From positions 4,092,001 to 4,156,000 of the forward strand of contig NZ_LT907842.1 in NCBI RefSeq assembly GCF_900215245.1: a DNA stretch of 64,000 nt, given 5' to 3'. Position numbers and translations under genes: made by a program. The DNA comes from Pseudomonas fluorescens. GTDB lineage: Bacteria; Pseudomonadota; Gammaproteobacteria; Pseudomonadales; Pseudomonadaceae. Below are positions 3,572 through 18,069 of this stretch, piece after piece. The notes beneath the pieces were generated by a model that saw only the letters and a program-made list of their open reading frames with translations, searched no databases and was not told where the DNA came from. Positions within the stretch are counted from its first letter, which is position 1. Every line of letters starts with the position of its first letter.

Positions 3572-3654
3572 ACCGCTATCGCAGGCAAGCCAGCTCCCAC
3601 ATTTGAATGTATTCACACATCAAAATGTGGGAGCCGGGCTTGCCCGCGATAGGG
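3572..3654. repeat. REP pair (inverted)
   Basis: Two REP elements in opposite orientation (3575-3603 and 3624-3652), each with the GTGGGAGC..GCTTGCC core, separated by about 20 bases. They lie in the gap between the convergent lolE and copS genes. No T-tract follows. Confidence 0.9.
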
Positions 3655-3669
3655 CCGGTACAGCTTGCA

Positions 3670-5031
3670 TCAATCTGCTGTTGGCAACTCAATCACAAAC
3701 CTGGTCCACCCCGCCCCAGACTCACAGTAAATCCTCCCGCCATGCGCCCGCACAATCGACTGGGTAATCGCCAGCCCCAGCCCCGCATGCTCGCTGCTGC
3801 CTTCACGGCGCGCCGGGTCCGCACGGTAGAACCGATCAAACAACCTCGGTAACAACGCCGCTGGAATGCCTTCGCCGGTATTCTCCACCGTCAGCGTCAC
3901 GCCCTGTTTGCGTTCAACCATCCGCACCCGCACCTCGCCACCGGCCGGGGTAAACCTGAGCGCGTTATCGAGCAAATTCGACAACGCCCGGCGCAACATG
4001 CCGCGATCAGCCGCCGTGTGCGCGGCGCCCTCGCGCACCAGGCTCACGTGGGCGTCCTCGGCCAACAAGGCGAAGAACTCCAGCAGCGCCTCCACTTCAG
4101 CTTCCAGCACCAAGGCTTCGTGCTTGGGCATGAGCAGCCCGTGATCGGCCTTGGCCAGGTACAACATGTCATTTACCAACTGCGCCATCCATTGCAGTTC
4201 TTCCAGGTTGCTGTGCAGCGCTTCGCGGTAATCTTCCAGCGGGCGCGGCTGAGTGAGGATGACCTGGGTGTGGGTCAGCAGGTTCGACAGGGGCGTGCGC
4301 AGTTCGTGGGCGATGTCGGCGGAGAAGGCCGAGAGGCGCTGGAACGAATCGTCGAGGCGGCCCAGCATCGCGTTGAAGGCCTGGGCCAGTTCGGCGAGTT
4401 CCACGGGCATTTGCTGCTGGGGCAGGCGTTGGGTCAAGGAATGCGCCGACACCCCGGCGGCCACTTCACTCATGCGCCGCAACGGCCGCAAGCCACTGCG
4501 TGCCGCCCAGGCGCCGAGCAGCGCGGTGGCCAGCGCCGAGAGGCCGACGGTCAGCCAGATCAGATGCTGCATGCGTTGCAGGAAGTGCTGGTGATGGGTG
4601 ATGTCGAGCATCAGGCTCAGTTGCGGCGAGCCCGGCTGGTTTGGCAGCAACGGCACGTTGTACACGCGGTAGTCGGTGCCGGCGTTTTGCAGGCTGTGCA
4701 GGCCTGGCGCTGCGGGCAGTGCGACGCCCGGTGCGCCGTCATACCAGCGCTGGCCGGCGGCCGTAATGCGCAACGCCAGGTCGGGTTGCCGGTTGAGTTC
4801 AGTGCGCAATTGCGCTTCGCGCTGGGCGAACAACTGTGGCGTATCCACACCCTGCAACGTGCTGCGCAGCGCCACCAGTTTGCCGTCGAGCAACTGTTGG
4901 TCGAGTTCGACAAAGTGGGCCTCACTGGCCTGGTTGAAGAGCACGCCGGCGATCAACGAGACCACCGCCGTGCACGCCGCAAACAGCAGCGCCAGGCGGC
5001 TGGCCAGGGACAGGCGCTTGATCAATTGCAC
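3670..5031 (-). CDS. copS: Heavy-metal (copper) sensor histidine kinase, CopS/CusS type
   Basis: Membrane kinase partner of the CopR regulator encoded just upstream. Membrane segments lie at about residues 10-33 and 158-180 with a periplasmic sensing domain between them, then a HAMP region, the H-box [13 protein letters not shown] (His242), and an ATPase domain with N ([10 protein letters not shown]), G1 (NTGEGIP) and G2 (GLGLAI) boxes. The start codon is GTG and overlaps the end of copR by 10 bases, so the two are cotranslated. The family (CopS, CusS, IrlS) senses copper or other metals in the periplasm; copper is favoured here by the cop box and cupredoxin next door. Confidence 0.9.
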
Positions 5032-5702
5032 CGTTCCTCCAACACATAGCCCATGCCGCGCACGGTGTGGATCAGCTTGTTGGGGAAGTGGTCATCGACT
5101 TTCAGGCGCAATCGGCGGATCGCCACTTCGATGATGTTGGTGTCGCTGTCGAAATTCATGTCCCACACTTGAGAGGCGATCAGCGACTTGGGCAGCACTT
5201 CGCCCTGGCGGCGCAGCAACAGCTCCAGCAGCGAGAATTCCTTGGCGGTGAGGTCGATGCGCTGGCCGTCCCGTTCGACGCGGCGGCGGATCAGGTCCAG
5301 GCGCAGGTCAGCCAGTTGCAGCGCGGTGTCCTGCGGTGTGCTGCTGCCACGGCGCAACAGGCTGCGCACCCGGGCCAGCAGTTCGGAAAAGGCGAAGGGT
5401 TTGACCAGGTAATCGTCGGCGCCCAGTTCCAGGCCGTGCACGCGGTCTTCCACCGCATCGCGGGCGGTGAGGAACAGCACCGGGAGGTCCAGGCCGGCAC
5501 TGCGCACGGCCTGCAGGATTTGCCAGCCGTCACGGCCCGGCAGCATCACATCAAGGATCAACAGGTCGTAATCACCGGTCAGCGCCAGGTGTTGCCCGCT
5601 GGTGCCGTCGGCGACCAATTCGGTGGTAAAGCCCGCCTCGGTCAGGCCCTGGCGCAGGTAGTGGCCGGTTTTCGGTTGGTCTTCAACGATCAGCAGTTTC
5701 AT
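5022..5702 (-). CDS. copR: Copper response regulator CopR (OmpR family)
   Basis: 226-residue OmpR/PhoB-type regulator: receiver domain (residues 1-120, acidic pocket E7-D8, phospho-acceptor D51 in [10 protein letters not shown], Lys in LVKPFAF) and a winged-helix DNA-binding domain (about 130-225, [15 protein letters not shown]). The ATG at 5702 gives [13 protein letters not shown], the usual start; an upstream in-frame ATG would add 21 unlikely residues. It is divergent from a cupredoxin gene, and the shared gap holds a motif matching the CopR box. Expected to activate the cupredoxin gene and probably other copper genes elsewhere. Confidence 0.92.
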
Positions 5703-13048: not shown

Positions 13049-14035
13049 TCACCGCCCCTCCAACAACTCCCCCGCCTGATCCAGCAACGCCAACGGATCA
13101 CTCGCCTTATGAATATCCACCGACAACAACTGCCTGAACCGACGAGCCCCCGGAAACCCGGTCCCCAGCCCCAACACATGCCGAGTAATGTGATGCATCG
13201 CCCCACCACTGGCCAAATGCTCCGCAATATAAGGCCGCAACTGCGCCAACGCCTCAGCCCGACTCACCACCGGCGCGGCACTGCCAAACAACTGCTGATC
13301 CACCTCCGCCAGCAAATACGGATTGTGATAAGCCTCGCGCCCCAACATCACCCCATCAAACACCTGCAAATGCGCCTGGCACTGCTCCAGCGTCTTGATC
13401 CCACCATTCAACACAATCTCCAACGCCGGGAAATCCTGCTTCAACTGCGCCGCCACGTCATAGCGCAACGGCGGAATATCCCGATTCTCCTTCGGCGACA
13501 ACCCCTCAAGAATCGCAATCCGCGCATGCACCGTAAAACTGGTACACCCGGCATCCCTCACCGTCCCAACGAAATCACACAACTCGGCATAACTGTCCCG
13601 CCCATTGATCCCGATACGATGCTTCACCGTCACCGGAATCGACACCGCATCCCGCATCGCCTTCACACACTCCGCCACCAGTGCAGGGTGCGCCATCAGG
13701 ATCGCGCCGATCATATTGTTCTGCACCCGATCACTCGGGCAGCCGACGTTCAAGTTCACTTCATCGTAACCGGCCGCCTCAGCCATACGCGCACAAGCGG
13801 CCAGGTCGGCAGGAACACTGCCGCCCAACTGCAGCGCGAGTGGGTGCTCGGCTTCGTTGTGACGCAGGAAGCGCTCGTGGTCGCCATGCAGGATCGCGCC
13901 CGTGGTGACCATCTCGGTGTAGAGCAGGGCGTGCTTGGAGAGCAGGCGCAGGAAGAACCGGCAGTGACGGTCGGTCCAATCCATCATCGGGGCGACGGAG
14001 AAGCGGCGGGAGAGTGGGGCGGATTGTAGGGGCAT
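13049..14035 (-). CDS. dusA: tRNA-dihydrouridine(20/20a) synthase DusA
   Basis: FMN enzyme that reduces uridine 20/20a in tRNA. 328 residues with the DusA hallmarks RRFSVAPMMDWTDRHCRFF at the N-terminus, NLNVGCPSDRV with the active-site Cys (about residue 100), VKHRIG, and ITRHVLGL near the C-terminus. The gene is intact, but its 5' end contains a 29-base stretch that is repeated perfectly 2.86 kb upstream, next to a decayed second dusA 5' end. The first 20 or so codons and the promoter were therefore probably supplied by an inserted element. dusA is a known integration target of genomic islands. Confidence 0.96.
   Translation of the reverse strand: MPLQSAPLSRRFSVAPMMDWTDRHCRFFLRLLSKHALLYTEMVTTGAILHGDHERFLRHNEAEHPLALQLGGSVPADLAACARMAEAAGYDEVNLNVGCPSDRVQNNMIGAILMAHPALVAECVKAMRDAVSIPVTVKHRIGINGRDSYAELCDFVGTVRDAGCTSFTVHARIAILEGLSPKENRDIPPLRYDVAAQLKQDFPALEIVLNGGIKTLEQCQAHLQVFDGVMLGREAYHNPYLLAEVDQQLFGSAAPVVSRAEALAQLRPYIAEHLASGGAMHHITRHVLGLGTGFPGARRFRQLLSVDIHKASDPLALLDQAGELLEGR
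13975..14003. repeat. Left copy of 29-bp direct repeat (attL-like) in the dusA 5' end
   Basis: Starts TCCAATCCATCATCGG and is identical to 16839-16867. On the minus strand it encodes FSVAPMMDW of DusA, the segment used as attachment site by dusA-specific integrases. Left of the repeat the two copies have nothing in common; right of it they remain similar for about 90 bases. Confidence 0.85.
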
Positions 14036-14461
14036 GGGGGAATCTGAGTTAGCGAGGCGAATGGGGCGCAGTTTATCAGGGATGTGTCTAGGGTGTGGGA
14101 GGGGCTTGTGCGCTTCTCACCACCTCGCGTTGCACATTGCTTCGTGTGGAATGTGTCGGGATCGGAGGGAGGCCAGTACGTTAGATATCGTGGTCTGACC
14201 CCGATATCCCCCGTTTGCCAGTCTAGATATGCATAAATGCATTTTTTTGTTGCGGTGTTTGCTGTGTATGCATACAGTATGTGTGCGGCATGATGAAGAG
14301 TGCAGCAGACGGGGATTTTTGTTCGTTGAGCTTCTCAGAAACAGAGAGCTTCAGAGCCGAAGCCGTTTGTCAGAGGGTAGTAAGGTGATGGGGTAATCAG
14401 CCGTTCACTTTACTGAAATATGAGAGCTATCCTACTGAATATAGCGAAAAGGAAATTCACT
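14036..14461. other. Intergenic region between dusA and the bacteriocin gene
   Basis: Holds the dusA promoter side, which matches 16900-16955 imperfectly; a truncated REP (14095-14115); a CGTGGTCTGACCCCGAT motif near 14199-14215; a short palindrome ATGCATAAATGCAT-like (14229-14242); and the SOS box listed separately. No gene is seen. Confidence 0.7.
14262..14277 (+). promoter_or_regulatory. LexA/SOS box upstream of the bacteriocin
   Basis: CTGTGTATGCATACAG fits the LexA consensus CTGT-N8-ACAG with both half-sites perfect. It lies 185 bases before the bacteriocin start. It predicts DNA-damage induction, the usual control of colicins and many Pseudomonas bacteriocins. Confidence 0.82.
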
Positions 14462-16237
14462 ATGCCTATGATTGGCGACACGCTTTATCTTCCAGAAATT
14501 GAAATCAACGCTATTAATAAATATGAACCACAGACATTCGGAGGCGGAGGTGGTGACAGTGATTTCTCACATAGTCACACTGGACAGCTAATTAACGTTG
14601 CAACGCGTACTTATATACTTAGCACATACCCCCCCATTATTTCCCAAAATGTTAAGGATCAAGAGGCGAGCTTTGCAACGAATCTTCAGTCGATGCCCGA
14701 ATCTATTGCAAAAAGCATTACTGCAATAGAACAAAATGAAGGCAGTCCCGCGAGCGAAGTCGAGAAAATCGAACAGCATATTCGTTCGGTAGATACGCTA
14801 ATCACTCAAAAATCACAGGCTGCTGCTGCTCAAAAGGCGATTGCTGATAAGTACTACTATGGAGACTTCTTTCGTTTCCCGACTATGCAATTTATTAAAG
14901 ATGCAATCAGCGGGAGCAAGACAAACTACCCTCCAGATAAAAATTATAAAGAATGGTACACTTCACTTGAGGCTGCGTATGCTGCAAAATATATCATTCG
15001 GGAGATCGATTATTTAAATGTCCTGAAGCAGAATCTTCAAGCACAGGCTAACCAAGCACGTGCAGACGCTGAGGCCAAACGTATTGCCGATGAGGCGGCA
15101 GCAGCTGAGGCTGCTAGGGTAGCTGCTGAAGCCGCAGCACTTAAAGCAGCTCACACGTTCAGGCTTCCCGCAGCCGGTGCTATGCAACTGAGTACGGCTG
15201 CAGGCTCTATTGCCGTCACGGCAGGTTCAGGCGTTACGTTGGAGGCGGCGATTCAAGCGGCTAAGGTAGCGCTGAGTACAGTTGTGAGTGCGGCCACGGC
15301 AGTCGGTATTGGAGCTTTGACGTATTCAGAGTCCCTTGGCAACGGGGAGCTGCCCGCGACAATGCTGGATCTGCCCGCTAAGGAACTGGCGCCTAGCCTG
15401 CCTGATAATCTTCTCGAGGTAGCGGCGGCTGGTGGGACGGTTGATGTGCTATATCGGCTTTATGGTGATCAATCGAAGTATTCGGTAGTGGCCACCCAGG
15501 TCACTGGTGGACTAGCCCCCACTGTTCCGGTAAGGGCATTGGTGCTTGATCCTGTGGCCAACGCCTATACGTTTACTACAACCGATACACCACCGATTAC
15601 CCTGGCATTCCCTATTGCAGTACCAGGAAATAGCTCAACGGCAACTCCGGCACAGCCCGTGGAGACTCCGGTATACACAGGCATCACTCTGACCCCAATT
15701 GACGTCAAAGCTGAGCCGTTTCCGATTGCCAGCCAATTGAGCATCCGAGACGCTATTTACGTTTACCCCGCGGATTCGGGTTTGCCGCCGATTTATGCGG
15801 TATTTAGTAGTCCGTACGAAGGTGCTACCACTAAAGGTGTACACAGCGGACGGATGTACAATCCTGATAAAGCCGGAGGTCCAACCCAAGATCTTGATTG
15901 GGCAACGGCAACGGTGACTCAGGAAGGTATTGATCTGGTTAAATTGCATACGTCACGATTCGTACCTTCTGATGCTAATAAGATTATGATTGAACGGCTA
16001 GAAAAGATACTAAGTGGTCAGATCCCTGTTACGGATGTTGATAAACGATTTTACACCCATGAAATGCGAGAGTTAGAACGTTACAGGGCGCTCGGGGTAG
16101 CTGATGGGGTAGAAGGAAATGTTTGGAATAATGCTCATGCTGCAACCTTAGAAGACTATAAGCTGAGGGATGCTGACGATTTATTCTATACGCCTGAAGC
16201 CATTGCTGCAGAAATTAAACAAGTATATGGAGAGTAA
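14462..16237 (+). CDS. S-type pyocin-like bacteriocin (colicin-type toxin)
   Basis: 591 residues from the ATG at 14462, chosen because AAGGA lies eight bases upstream; an ATG at 14420 would add 14 residues. Layout: Gly-rich N-terminus (GGGGGDSDFSHSHTG), helical receptor/coiled-coil part with an Ala-rich run (about 190-235), a pyocin S translocation domain (about 230-450: HTFRLPAAGAMQLSTAAG, ALTYSES, VPVRALVLD, PADSGLPPIYAVFSSPY), and a C-terminal killing domain (about 450-591). The killing domain has no HNH nuclease motif; conspicuous residues are H533-E in FYTHEMRELERYRALG and N-N-A-H559 in WNNAHAATLEDYKL. AT-richer than its surroundings, SOS-box controlled, and followed by a probable immunity gene. 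Target in the cell is unknown. Confidence 0.88.
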   Translation: MPMIGDTLYLPEIEINAINKYEPQTFGGGGGDSDFSHSHTGQLINVATRTYILSTYPPIISQNVKDQEASFATNLQSMPESIAKSITAIEQNEGSPASEVEKIEQHIRSVDTLITQKSQAAAAQKAIADKYYYGDFFRFPTMQFIKDAISGSKTNYPPDKNYKEWYTSLEAAYAAKYIIREIDYLNVLKQNLQAQANQARADAEAKRIADEAAAAEAARVAAEAAALKAAHTFRLPAAGAMQLSTAAGSIAVTAGSGVTLEAAIQAAKVALSTVVSAATAVGIGALTYSESLGNGELPATMLDLPAKELAPSLPDNLLEVAAAGGTVDVLYRLYGDQSKYSVVATQVTGGLAPTVPVRALVLDPVANAYTFTTTDTPPITLAFPIAVPGNSSTATPAQPVETPVYTGITLTPIDVKAEPFPIASQLSIRDAIYVYPADSGLPPIYAVFSSPYEGATTKGVHSGRMYNPDKAGGPTQDLDWATATVTQEGIDLVKLHTSRFVPSDANKIMIERLEKILSGQIPVTDVDKRFYTHEMRELERYRALGVADGVEGNVWNNAHAATLEDYKLRDADDLFYTPEAIAAEIKQVYGE

Positions 16238-16238
16238 A

Positions 16239-16514
16239 ATGAGTAACATTAATGACGTGGTAGTCGCTGAAGCACCAAGGGATGTAGTTCTTTTTATTGT
16301 AAGAAACAAACCAATTTCGTATCCAATGCTGGATCGACTCTACAGCAGGAATGGGTGGGCCAATATTTCAAATAACTTAGAGCTTTTGAAGCTTATTGAA
16401 AATATGGAGCTCGAAGGGGTGGTTGAACATGTTGATGGAGGAATAAGAAAAGGCCCAAACTGGAATGCGCCAGCATTCATGGTTGAGAATAAGTATACGT
16501 TGAGTGATATTTAG
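16239..16514 (+). CDS. Probable cognate immunity protein of the bacteriocin
   Basis: 91 residues starting one base after the bacteriocin stop, with GGAGAG overlapping the toxin's last codons as its ribosome site. It has no signal peptide or membrane segment, so it would act in the cytoplasm on a nuclease-like toxin. The sequence (DVVLFIVRNKPISYPMLDRLYSRNGW, then two charged helices) looks like a small helical or winged-helix fold; no named immunity family is recognised. The role is inferred from position, size and the terminator that closes the pair. Confidence 0.75.
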   Translation: MSNINDVVVAEAPRDVVLFIVRNKPISYPMLDRLYSRNGWANISNNLELLKLIENMELEGVVEHVDGGIRKGPNWNAPAFMVENKYTLSDI

Positions 16515-16518
16515 GTCT

Positions 16519-16552
16519 GTAAAAAACCCAGCTCAAGCTGGGTTTTTTTTGC
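16519..16552 (+). terminator. Rho-independent terminator after the immunity gene
   Basis: AAAAAACCCAGCT, a CAA-type loop, AGCTGGGTTTTTTTT. It closes the bacteriocin-immunity transcription unit. Confidence 0.92.
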
Positions 16553-16762
16553 TTGGACTTTGAAAAGTTATTCCTCTCCGTATTCTGGATACTCTTGATG
16601 CTTGTGCTTTTAGGTATACCCAAATGGGTCATGGATACCCACACAGCGTCAGATGTTGACGTTTGAAGGGGATGTTGGGATTGGAGCGACAGGCATTGGC
16701 GATAAGCACCGTGCCTTACGGATGTGGTATTGTCGGCCAGGCGAGGGCTATTTCAGGAGGGG

Positions 16763-16812
16763 AGTGGTACGAAAGTGGTACGGGGTTTTTTATCGTGCGC
16801 TACAGGGTACGT
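16763..16812. repeat. Integrase-arm-like direct repeats
   Basis: AGTGGTACG occurs at 16763-16771 and 16774-16782, spaced by 11 bases, with a related AGGGTACGT at 16804-16812. They end 27 bases before the right 29-bp repeat, the place expected for arm-type sites of a tyrosine integrase. No integrase gene is present in the window. Confidence 0.5.
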
Positions 16813-16838
16813 ATTACAATGTCTGTAGAATTAGCAGT

Positions 16839-16867
16839 TCCAATCCATCATCGGGGCGACGGAGAAG
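16839..16867. repeat. Right copy of 29-bp direct repeat (attR-like)
   Basis: Identical over 29 bases to 13975-14003 within dusA. To its right the sequence continues as a diverged dusA 5' end; to its left it is unrelated to dusA. The interval between the start points of the two copies is 2864 bases and holds only the bacteriocin and immunity genes. Confidence 0.85.
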
Positions 16868-16902
16868 TGGCGGGAGAGGGGAGCGGTATTTAGGGATATT
16901 GG
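16839..16902 (-). pseudogene. dusA 5'-end remnant
   Basis: On the minus strand this reads ...APLSRHFSVAPMMDW-NC-stop, matching the start of DusA and then breaking off exactly at the repeat boundary. The start codon position carries ATA where dusA has ATG, and several bases differ outside the repeat, so it is not expressed as a protein. It is what is left of the original dusA 5' end after insertion of the island. Confidence 0.75.
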
Positions 16903-17032
16903 GGTCTGAGTCAGGGGGGTGAATGGGGTGCAGTTTATCAGGGATAGGTCTTGGGTGCCGGGGAGGCGTGTTCTGTGCCCTTGCATATGCCGATGAGTTC
17001 AGGGCAATTGCTGCGCCGAATATCGTGGTCTG

Positions 17033-17094
17033 ACACCGATTTGCACGATTTACAACACCGATTTGCATGACGCAGACTTGCACCGATATGCAGA
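17033..17094 (+). repeat. Three short imperfect direct repeats
   Basis: ACACCGATTTGCACGA (17033-17048), ACACCGATTTGCATGA (17055-17070) and GCACCGATATGCAGA (17080-17094), spaced 22 and 25 bases apart, i.e. about two helical turns. The array resembles a protein-binding iteron cluster; no replication gene is nearby. Confidence 0.55.
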
Positions 17095-17219
17095 CAGTAA
17101 ATACAGTGTTGTCGCAATAATGCTAGCTGCGACATACTAGAGGGCAACAAAGCGGCCCTCCGGGAGAGTTCTATTAATTTTCGAGGTGAATGTCCAAGCT
17201 AGTACAGTAATGATCTATT

Positions 17220-17633
17220 CTAATCATCAGTATCTTGCCCGCCATAGATATTGGCTCTGCTTCTCGAAGAGCGACCGTCGCTGTAGCGAGTATCGTGTCC
17301 GCCATAAATGTTTCCGCTGCTTCGCGCCGAAGTGCCATCGCTGTTGTGGGTATCCTGCCCGTCGTAAATGTTCCTACTGCTTTGCGAGGTAGTGCCATCG
17401 CTGTTGTGAGTATCTTGCCCACCGTAAATATTGGCGCTGCTTTGCGATGTGCGGCCATCGCTGTAGCGGATATTCTCGCCACCATAAATATTAGCGCTGC
17501 TGGTAGACGTTGTTCCATCGTCATATCTGCAGTTGTAGCCGTTATAGATATTTTTACTGCACGTGTCAGCATAGGCTTGATGCAGGGGCGAAAATAGAAT
17601 AATCGAACCCAGCAGAGCAATCTTGAGGTTCAT
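17220..17633 (-). CDS. Secreted protein made of 20-residue tandem repeats
   Basis: 137 residues. A Sec signal peptide (MNLKIALLGSIILFSPLHQAYA) is followed by a Cys-containing cap (DTCSKNIYNGYNCRYDD) and then about five units of exactly 20 residues with the pattern S-x-NIYGGxDxxxSDGxxSxS, visible in the DNA as a 60-base tandem repeat. GGAG lies before the ATG. The mature part is rich in Gly, Ser, Asp, Asn and Tyr and has no hydrophobic segments, so it is probably extracellular or periplasmic and forms a repetitive beta-type structure. No family recognised; function unknown. Confidence 0.72.
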   Translation of the reverse strand: MNLKIALLGSIILFSPLHQAYADTCSKNIYNGYNCRYDDGTTSTSSANIYGGENIRYSDGRTSQSSANIYGGQDTHNSDGTTSQSSRNIYDGQDTHNSDGTSARSSGNIYGGHDTRYSDGRSSRSRANIYGGQDTDD

Positions 17634-18069
17634 TAAAGCTCCGTTCGAGATAACTCGATATCATAGGAAAAGATATTAGGTGTCGCGGCCACGCGCGAAC
17701 GCTTTTTTGAATGGTAAATAAGGATATTTATGAATGTTTGTCTCGAGCTCCTTGATTAAGTCTGAGGGGCGGAGTTGCTTTGCGTGCCTGAGCGAATCAA
17801 TGGGGCTGGCAACATGCCACTATTTATACAGACTGATCACCTCGGACGAAGTTTCCGCCATAAAAATTATTTTTATAAAATGTATACCGGGGTCATTTAT
17901 GTCGGGGTCAGATCACAATAAACCCTAGGAATCGTCCCACGCTTTTCTCAGCTTGCCCATCAGACCATTCATCACTAACCTCATCCCGCCGCTGCAAACC
18001 CAGCGGCCGGAGGTGGAAGTCCGTATTGCTAAGGCGTTTTAACTCCCGAAAATATTTGGAGCTTCGCCG
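17634..18069. other. Gap between the repeat protein and the DUF6124 gene
   Basis: AT-rich promoter side for the repeat protein (17634-17760), then mixed sequence with a TGTCGGGGTCAGATCAC motif (17897-17913) that is the inverted counterpart of motifs near 14199 and 17025. From about 17930 the base composition returns to that of the core genome. No gene or RNA recognised. Confidence 0.5.

Follow-up and report, generated by a model that had tools for sequence, protein, structure and literature searches.

A bacteriocin unit without an integrase at dusA of Pseudomonas fluorescens may be moved in trans by integrases of DusA-type prophages

The 5' end of dusA is the target of the islands surveyed by Farrugia et al. 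(2015, PMC4482086), and according to that survey the integrase is the sole gene common to all 94 islands, which measure 4,758-184,808 bp, typically supply a new dusA 5' end and show an excision that is easier to detect after mitomycin C. Islands at dusA in Vibrio (PMC8409611) and the mobile elements of Pf-5 (PMC2647930) have also been described. The microcin H47 island of E. coli is a bacteriocin cassette between direct repeats that has no recombinase of its own, which Azpiroz et al. (2011, PMC3191183) termed a 'parasitic strategy'; it is 12.6 kb long, its long repeats contain four exchange sites, the host recombinase is given as unknown, and its mobility was shown experimentally. Cis-mobilisable elements (CIMEs), as presented in a survey of S. 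salivarius (PMC7563491), are flanked by attachment (att) sites, lack recombination genes, measure 1.2-13 kb in their classical form, occur in tandem with intact elements and are regarded as mobile in cis only, through accretion. The S-type pyocins are built from modular receptor-binding, translocation and killing domains and are accompanied by an immunity protein. Here we analysed 64,000 nt of Pseudomonas fluorescens (GCF_900215245.1, NZ_LT907842.1:4,092,001-4,156,000; hereafter the window, from the 6.5-Mb genome G000), in which a predicted S-type pyocin gene lies in a small unit at dusA between two copies of a core repeat. Other genomes and loci are given by our handles (G and L numbers) where they have to be told apart.

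The core is a perfect 29-bp direct repeat, TCCAATCCATCATCGGGGCGACGGAGAAG, with no third copy in the window; it is the longest exact direct repeat of the 64 kb, in which none of at least 30 bases and no other of 29 bases was found. The unit between the cores has a length of 2,864 bp and a G+C content of 48%, against 59.9% for the window, and is composed of the core, a dusA 5' arm, the pyocin gene, a likely immunity gene, a non-coding right end of prophage type and the core again (Table 1). The two copies have no relation to each other on the left side of the repeat and are alike on the right side, with 84% identity over 121 nt including the core, or 82% over 135 nt in a second alignment. An earlier reading of the letters alone (the sequence-only reading) is borne out in its description of a perfect repeat bracketing a bacteriocin gene, of a left copy in intact dusA and a right copy that opens a decayed dusA 5' end, of likeness to the right of the repeat only, and of an insertion at the dusA attachment site between core repeats, as in dusA islands.

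Like the dusA islands as surveyed (PMC4482086), the unit has the dusA 5' end as its target and core repeats at its ends, and its right-end arm is shared with integrase-bearing members found in this study; unlike them, it measures 2,864 bp only, no integrase was found in it and its dusA-side arm is of native type. We do not file it as a dusA island because it lacks two defining features, the integrase and the supplied 5' end. It resembles the microcin H47 island as a repeat-flanked bacteriocin cassette without a recombinase gene, and it differs in that a likely recombinase family, predicted arm sites and a strain with both unit and integrase can be named here, while its excision is a prediction. 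It keeps att sites and has no recombination gene that we could find, like CIMEs, but it has its own two ends at a second site, and one of its arms is dusA-type instead of the parent element's arm. We propose that the unit works as an H47-type parasite within the DusA system. Integrase-less att-flanked islands are thus already known from microcin H47 and the CIMEs, and it is the very small variant in the DusA system that we consider new; among the matches listed from the open-licence literature, no paper described a bacteriocin cassette at dusA in Pseudomonas. Its ends can be drawn nearly to the base, and a probable helper family and its predicted recognition sites can be named. To our knowledge, bacteriocin genes vary between strains by a mode of swapping that is mostly unclear.

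The evidence for movement comes mainly from the related genome G360, where the unit (13982-16860) recurs at C1:3434136-3437015, a site other than dusA, with 98.4% identity over 2,882 columns. The dusA flanks of the two genomes are less alike (92.8% on the left, 90.9/86.3% on the right), and at the second site nothing aligns outside the bounds of the unit, save a right-hand dusA arm that matches the unit's own arm in a second, shorter match. The left junction of this copy falls at core position 8, and its right core is free of mismatches to position 16 and then agrees in four of six letters to position 22; as both ends lie inside the core, an exchange within CATCATCGG is the simplest reading. 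The pyocin reading frame of the G360 copy is interrupted near its start. A third copy was found in P. simiae CCUG 50988, with an identity of 97.5% over 2,878 columns and of 89.7% in the flank; its BLAST bounds are 13992-16860, the match is clean from about 14000, and the unit stands directly behind residues 1-197 of an integrase. A megablast search with 13900-17200 gave nothing in plasmids or phages; in IMG/VR, a related pyocin was found on two contigs and the right-end pattern on five. We also considered a packaging signal common to the unit and the dusA prophage of G360, and rejected it since only the two att arms aligned in the two prophage stretches compared.

With the integrase of G099 as a tblastn query (stop-to-stop frame, 411 aa), no significant match was obtained in the window (best E 1.5), which agrees with the sequence-only reading that the bracket has no integrase. 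The same query gave no match at E <= 1e-40 in G000, where the best had 28% identity, and found a relative or fragment at this threshold in 123 of 398 genomes of the genus. In G360 it found a full-length integrase (463-aa open frame, 91% identical to that of G099), which sits in a 36.6-kb prophage at dusA together with primase, terminase, baseplate and tail genes, so that the unit and a full-length DusA-type integrase co-reside in one genome. As in trans-mobilised islands, att-flanked cargo without a recombinase gene is found as the same unit at differing sites, with its ends in the same core. Because the unit recurs at 98.4% with flanks at 86-93%, ends in the core, meets an integrase in G360 and has no close one in G000, it has moved, probably in trans. 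An integrase in trans is favoured since the dusA site of G360 is occupied by the prophage with the full-length integrase and the unit is elsewhere. On balance we therefore lean, if only slightly, towards an integrase-less unit that is moved by a DusA-type prophage integrase in trans and that can probably also enter by homologous recombination through its captured dusA arm. The integrase of a dusA prophage, the putative helper, would act on the core and on predicted arm sites of the unit, which would excise as a circle. The copy in G000 is probably immobile today unless a helper enters, because no close integrase is present, and trans-mobilisation is directly testable in G360 because that genome contains both partners.

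The right end of the unit connects it with the prophages. The arm and core of the window are 84.5% identical to the right end of the G360 dusA prophage, 83% to that of G030 and 72-75% to those of G209, G099 and G175, and this match to integrase-bearing dusA prophages upholds the proposed insertion of dusA-element type. We compared 21 right ends, twelve of which were also aligned, and GTGGTAC was found twice, at -75 and -64 (in two cases at -74 and -63), in nine of them, namely the window, the G360 and P. simiae units, the integrase-bearing prophages of G099, G030, G263 and G360, and G158 and G236. In the other arm of the prophages, from core to integrase, each of the five examined has one GTGGTAC and two copies of its complement; three of the five have cut integrases. 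The pair 11 bp apart, GTGGTACNNNNGTGGTAC, was present in 9 of 18 chosen genomes at 10 places; it occurs once in the whole of G000, in the bacteriocin unit, and twice in G360, in the right end of the dusA prophage and in the bacteriocin unit. Nine of these places are 74-75 bp from a core (74 in the G360 unit), and the tenth, in G179, is in a matching right end at a contig break. Searched backwards as a control, the pair gave no match in the 18 genomes. We infer from this placement that GTGGTAC may be the arm site of the DusA-type integrase.

Several further right ends were met in the course of this comparison. Those of G290 (L139), G209 contig 10 (L144) and G238 (L150) are of DusA type with a core running into non-dusA sequence; the first two are separate from the dusA-core match, and TCCAATCCATCACCGAAAAGG occurs in both G209 and G238. 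These three could be secondary sites of the DusA integrase family. A similar right end in G374 (L169) stands at a dusA locus, with the arm replaced. In G179 (P. viridiflava p11.D4; L043, L051) the right end of a related element is broken between two contigs that both match the same 11 query bases and that each end in unrelated sequence, which looks like another insertion inside a right end.

The dusA arms give a second line of evidence, and it goes against one claim of the sequence-only reading. In an alignment of 27 arms, 23 others were counted as native, eight of which are right-hand copies unattached to dusA, and positions were taken as markers where the element arms of G360 and P. simiae have a common letter that most of these 23 lack. 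At marker 14033 the element state (T, without ATG) occurs in none of the 23 others and is found in the two element arms and in the right copy of the window, while the left copy retains the ATG. At markers 14090 and 14106, where the element state is likewise absent from all 23, the left copy has the element state and the right copy the native one. Over columns 22-75 the left arm is nearest to native arms (94% to G286 and G175, against 85% to the G360 element); columns 75-125 are undecided, with 96% to the P. simiae element and 96% to the G360 native arm; and over columns 125-180 it is 100% identical to the G360 element and 98% to the P. simiae element, with 82% to the best native arm. In the right arm, the G360 element is nearest over columns 22-75 by a weak margin (85% versus 82%) and native arms are nearest over columns 75-125 (92% versus 79%); the alignment of the right copy is poor beyond about 14115, and this part was left out. 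It had been expected that the element supplies the dusA 5' end. This is not supported for the window, where the arm next to dusA has native-type sequence as far as about 14042 and element-type sequence from about 14090 onwards, and the element arms of G360 and P. simiae are without a start codon. The switch suggests that the window copy was put in place, or repaired, by homologous recombination in the captured dusA arm, through a reciprocal crossover that would lie between about 14042 and about 14090 and might belong to a homologous integration or to a later repair. Because the dusA-proximal arm is native-type with ATG and the element arm has no start codon, the 29-bp repeats alone are no proof of an integrase-made insertion at dusA, and more generally core repeats at a phage site need not mean one.

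Several observations weigh against a unit moved by an integrase in trans. The full core-to-core unit is present in only three genomes, and G000 itself has nothing closer to the integrase than 28% identity. Inside a mosaic island, the G360 unit stands 145 bp from another dusA-type core and a prophage end. Among the matches listed for 199 genomes, none showed the joined empty site of G360 in one piece, and the two best start just right of the join; with the nearby core and prophage end, this makes a composite event at G360 possible. The GTGGTAC pair is not general, since 5 of the 21 right ends have a single copy (G175, G209, G304, G361, G261) and seven have none (G219, G150, G039, G197, G094, G040, G011), most of the latter terminating in another arm sequence. 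Five of the nine chosen genomes without the exact pair (G361, G136, G238, G310, G079) encode integrases 91-96% like that of G099. The unit has an attR-type site, consisting of P arm, core and dusA arm, and lacks the three GTGGTAC-type sites of the prophages' other arm, for which reason the integrase may use it poorly. Pyocins of the same kind stand at dusA in G119 and G040, where no second core was found. The arm switch is also not perfectly clean, as positions 14095 and 14101 and three later ones in the left arm depart from the G360 element. Beside the G360 copy, the right flank is an island end with a tRNA 3'-like stretch, presumably of Cys, that is common to G140 and G031; a tRNA site there was considered and dropped, as ARAGORN found no whole tRNA in L114, L164, L165, L167 and L168.

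A more specific form of the trans reading is that the unit is a minimal two-way satellite of DusA prophages, a bacteriocin cassette in which only the right arm and core of the prophage and a captured piece of host dusA are left, that enters by the integrase of a resident prophage or by RecA; we put it forward tentatively and think that it may well not hold. Such a satellite could use secondary sites when dusA is taken, as in G360, and its entry by RecA through the dusA arm would spare dusA the broken start codon of the cassette.

Mobilisation in cis, as in CIMEs, is the alternative that survives best, and we consider it unlikely. A dusA prophage would integrate beside the unit, the composite would excise or be transferred as one, and the prophage would be lost later. 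CIMEs are defined by such accretion in the survey cited (PMC7563491), and fitting arrangements do occur: in G040 a prophage-sized region of about 43 kb with an integrase (one stop) separates dusA from a pyocin of the same family, in P. simiae the cut integrase immediately precedes the unit, and in G360 the additional core at the prophage end is close by. The G360 unit nevertheless stands alone with both ends in the core, and the 145 bp between it and the prophage end are other sequence. No prophage lies beside the unit in the window. The sequence-only reading had left it open whether the locus is a remnant or was moved in trans, and the core-to-core unit at the non-dusA site of G360 supports the second part and disfavours the first. 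A plain remnant, that is, a dusA prophage reduced by decay in place to its right end and a bacteriocin gene, appears improbable to us. The prophage-type right end and the integrases cut short in place at dusA in G209, G219 and G094 would suit it, but the left arm is dusA-type and unlike the prophage arm in G099, and decay in place does not give a 2.9-kb unit that is 97.5-98.4% identical in three contexts with flanks 7-14% different.

Spread by homologous recombination only, in which RecA would act on the dusA arm and flanks and the core repeats would be passengers, has in its favour the reciprocal marker switch in the window and the dusA and promoter region common to the relatives aligned. We judge it very improbable as a full account, since at the G360 site, where nothing aligns outside the unit, no more than about 9-15 bp of the core can be shared at the insertion point. 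If the dusA 5' end had been duplicated in tandem and a bacteriocin gene had by chance inserted between the copies, the likeness of the two arms over about 120 nt with the core would be explained, but this account can practically be dismissed, because it supplies neither the prophage right end with paired GTGGTAC before the right copy nor the copy in G360.

The dusA core was matched in 253 of 298 genomes, and from 39 of these we read 40 stretches, each no longer than 20 kb; large prophages are under-counted because of this length limit. The comparison with related strains that the sequence-only reading had proposed yielded dusA sites with no second core as well as other cargo between the same repeats. 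At dusA of G004, G282 and G052 no second core was found with up to 6 mismatches, and conserved downstream genes are close. A second core right of the dusA core with up to 6 mismatches was found in 9 of the 40 stretches, with a full-length integrase in one (G099), a cut one in three (G209, G219, G094) and none in five (G150, G039, G261, G158, G236). G122 has a second core with 7 mismatches and G304 has two cores in 2.0 kb, neither with an integrase match. The cargo at dusA includes HNH and DUF2971 proteins (G150), an AAA ATPase (G209), a DUF4238 protein (G094) and a pentapeptide protein (G219), and that of G304 had no match in Pfam; other cargo was also seen in G039, G261 and others. Strains with both repeats and no bacteriocin, which the sequence-only reading had named as evidence against itself, therefore do exist (e.g. 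G304 and G150), and we read them as other cassettes, which do not speak against mobility. The integrase genes are cut at differing points beside dusA, with the cargo kept, in G209 (L034), G219 (L037), G094 (L048) and P. simiae (L185), a pattern suggesting that dusA elements have repeatedly lost their integrase.

The cargo of the unit is a predicted S-type pyocin gene with a Pyocin_S domain and an adjacent small gene, whose likely immunity function we deduce from its position. The Pyocin_S domain and a weak match of the protein model to pyocin S2 are in line with S-type pyocins; the difference lies in the C-terminal part (about residues 455-591), which had no Pfam family and only an NCBIfam match far below the cut-off, whereas the counterpart in G122 has Ntox44. 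The model itself is of low confidence (AlphaFold mean pLDDT, the predicted local distance difference test, 62.9), and its best Foldseek match, pyocin S2 (5odw), is weak at E 5.8e-3, with no match at E <= 0.001. The pyocin had no match among the sequences of solved structures, and the 91-aa likely immunity protein had none in Pfam or NCBIfam. A single CTG-N10-CAG, palindromic to varying degree, occurs in each of the ten pyocin upstream regions examined, and by comparison with the Pseudomonas consensus it may be a LexA box; the pyocin would then be SOS-induced. It would be expected to kill competitors. Pyocin relatives were found in 107 of the 398 genomes, and 15 of these places were examined in their context, beside G119, G040, G122 and G179; among the places examined, only G360 aligned over the whole unit. 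In G122 (P. fluorescens PfR 37; L042, oriented 3794-5210), also at dusA, the N-terminal part of the pyocin is shared (193 aa, 76%), the protein ends in the Ntox44 domain and the 142-aa neighbour differs, a swap of killing domains at one locus.

Table 1. Positions of the features of the dusA locus in the window (blank strand cell, no strand given)
Feature	Position	Strand	Basis or remark
dusA, tRNA-dihydrouridine synthase A, intact, target gene	13049-14035	-	Pfam PF01207 (Dus), E 5.9e-89
Left 29-bp core, inside dusA; attB-type site (dusA / core / native-type 5' end)	13975-14003		
CATCATCGG, putative strand-exchange segment	13982-13990; right copy 16846-16854		bounds of the G360 copy
Native-type part of dusA 5' arm	14004-14042		keeps dusA ATG (CAT at 14033-14035); 27-arm alignment
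Element-type part of captured dusA 5'/promoter arm	14090-14215		columns 125-180; markers 14090, 14106
CTGTGTATGCATACAG, LexA-box-like motif upstream of pyocin gene	14262-14277	+	CTG-N10-CAG
Predicted S-type pyocin (bacteriocin), 591 aa	14462-16237	+	PF06958, E 1.5e-28; S-type pyocin is the name of many listed homologues
Likely immunity gene, 91 aa	16239-16514	+	adjoins pyocin; 1 of 21 relatives named 'Immunity protein' in its source
Terminator-like hairpin with T run	16521-16550	+	read directly from the sequence
Prophage-type right end (P arm)	16764-16838	+	identity to dusA-prophage right ends
Predicted integrase arm site GTGGTAC, 75 bp before right core	16764-16770	+	same place in several integrase-bearing prophages
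Predicted integrase arm site GTGGTAC, 64 bp before right core	16775-16781	+	same place in several integrase-bearing prophages
Right copy of the 29-bp core; attR-type site (P arm / core / dusA 5' end)	16839-16867		
Decayed second dusA 5' end, start codon ATA	16868-16990		two proximal markers in the element state, distal markers in the native state

To the right of the unit, the stretch of about 16982-17934 showed no alignment with the eight relative loci compared. It holds an open reading frame of 137 aa (17220-17633, minus strand) with a signal-like start and about five 20-aa repeats of the NIYGGQDTHNSDGTTSQSS type, spaced at 60 nt in the DNA, which had no match in Pfam or NCBIfam. The next-longest exact repeats of the window, among the matches listed, are dispersed copies of GTGGGAGC...GCGAT at 3578, 3626, 7294, 30039, 47102 and other positions, which we assume to be like repetitive extragenic palindromic (REP) sequences.

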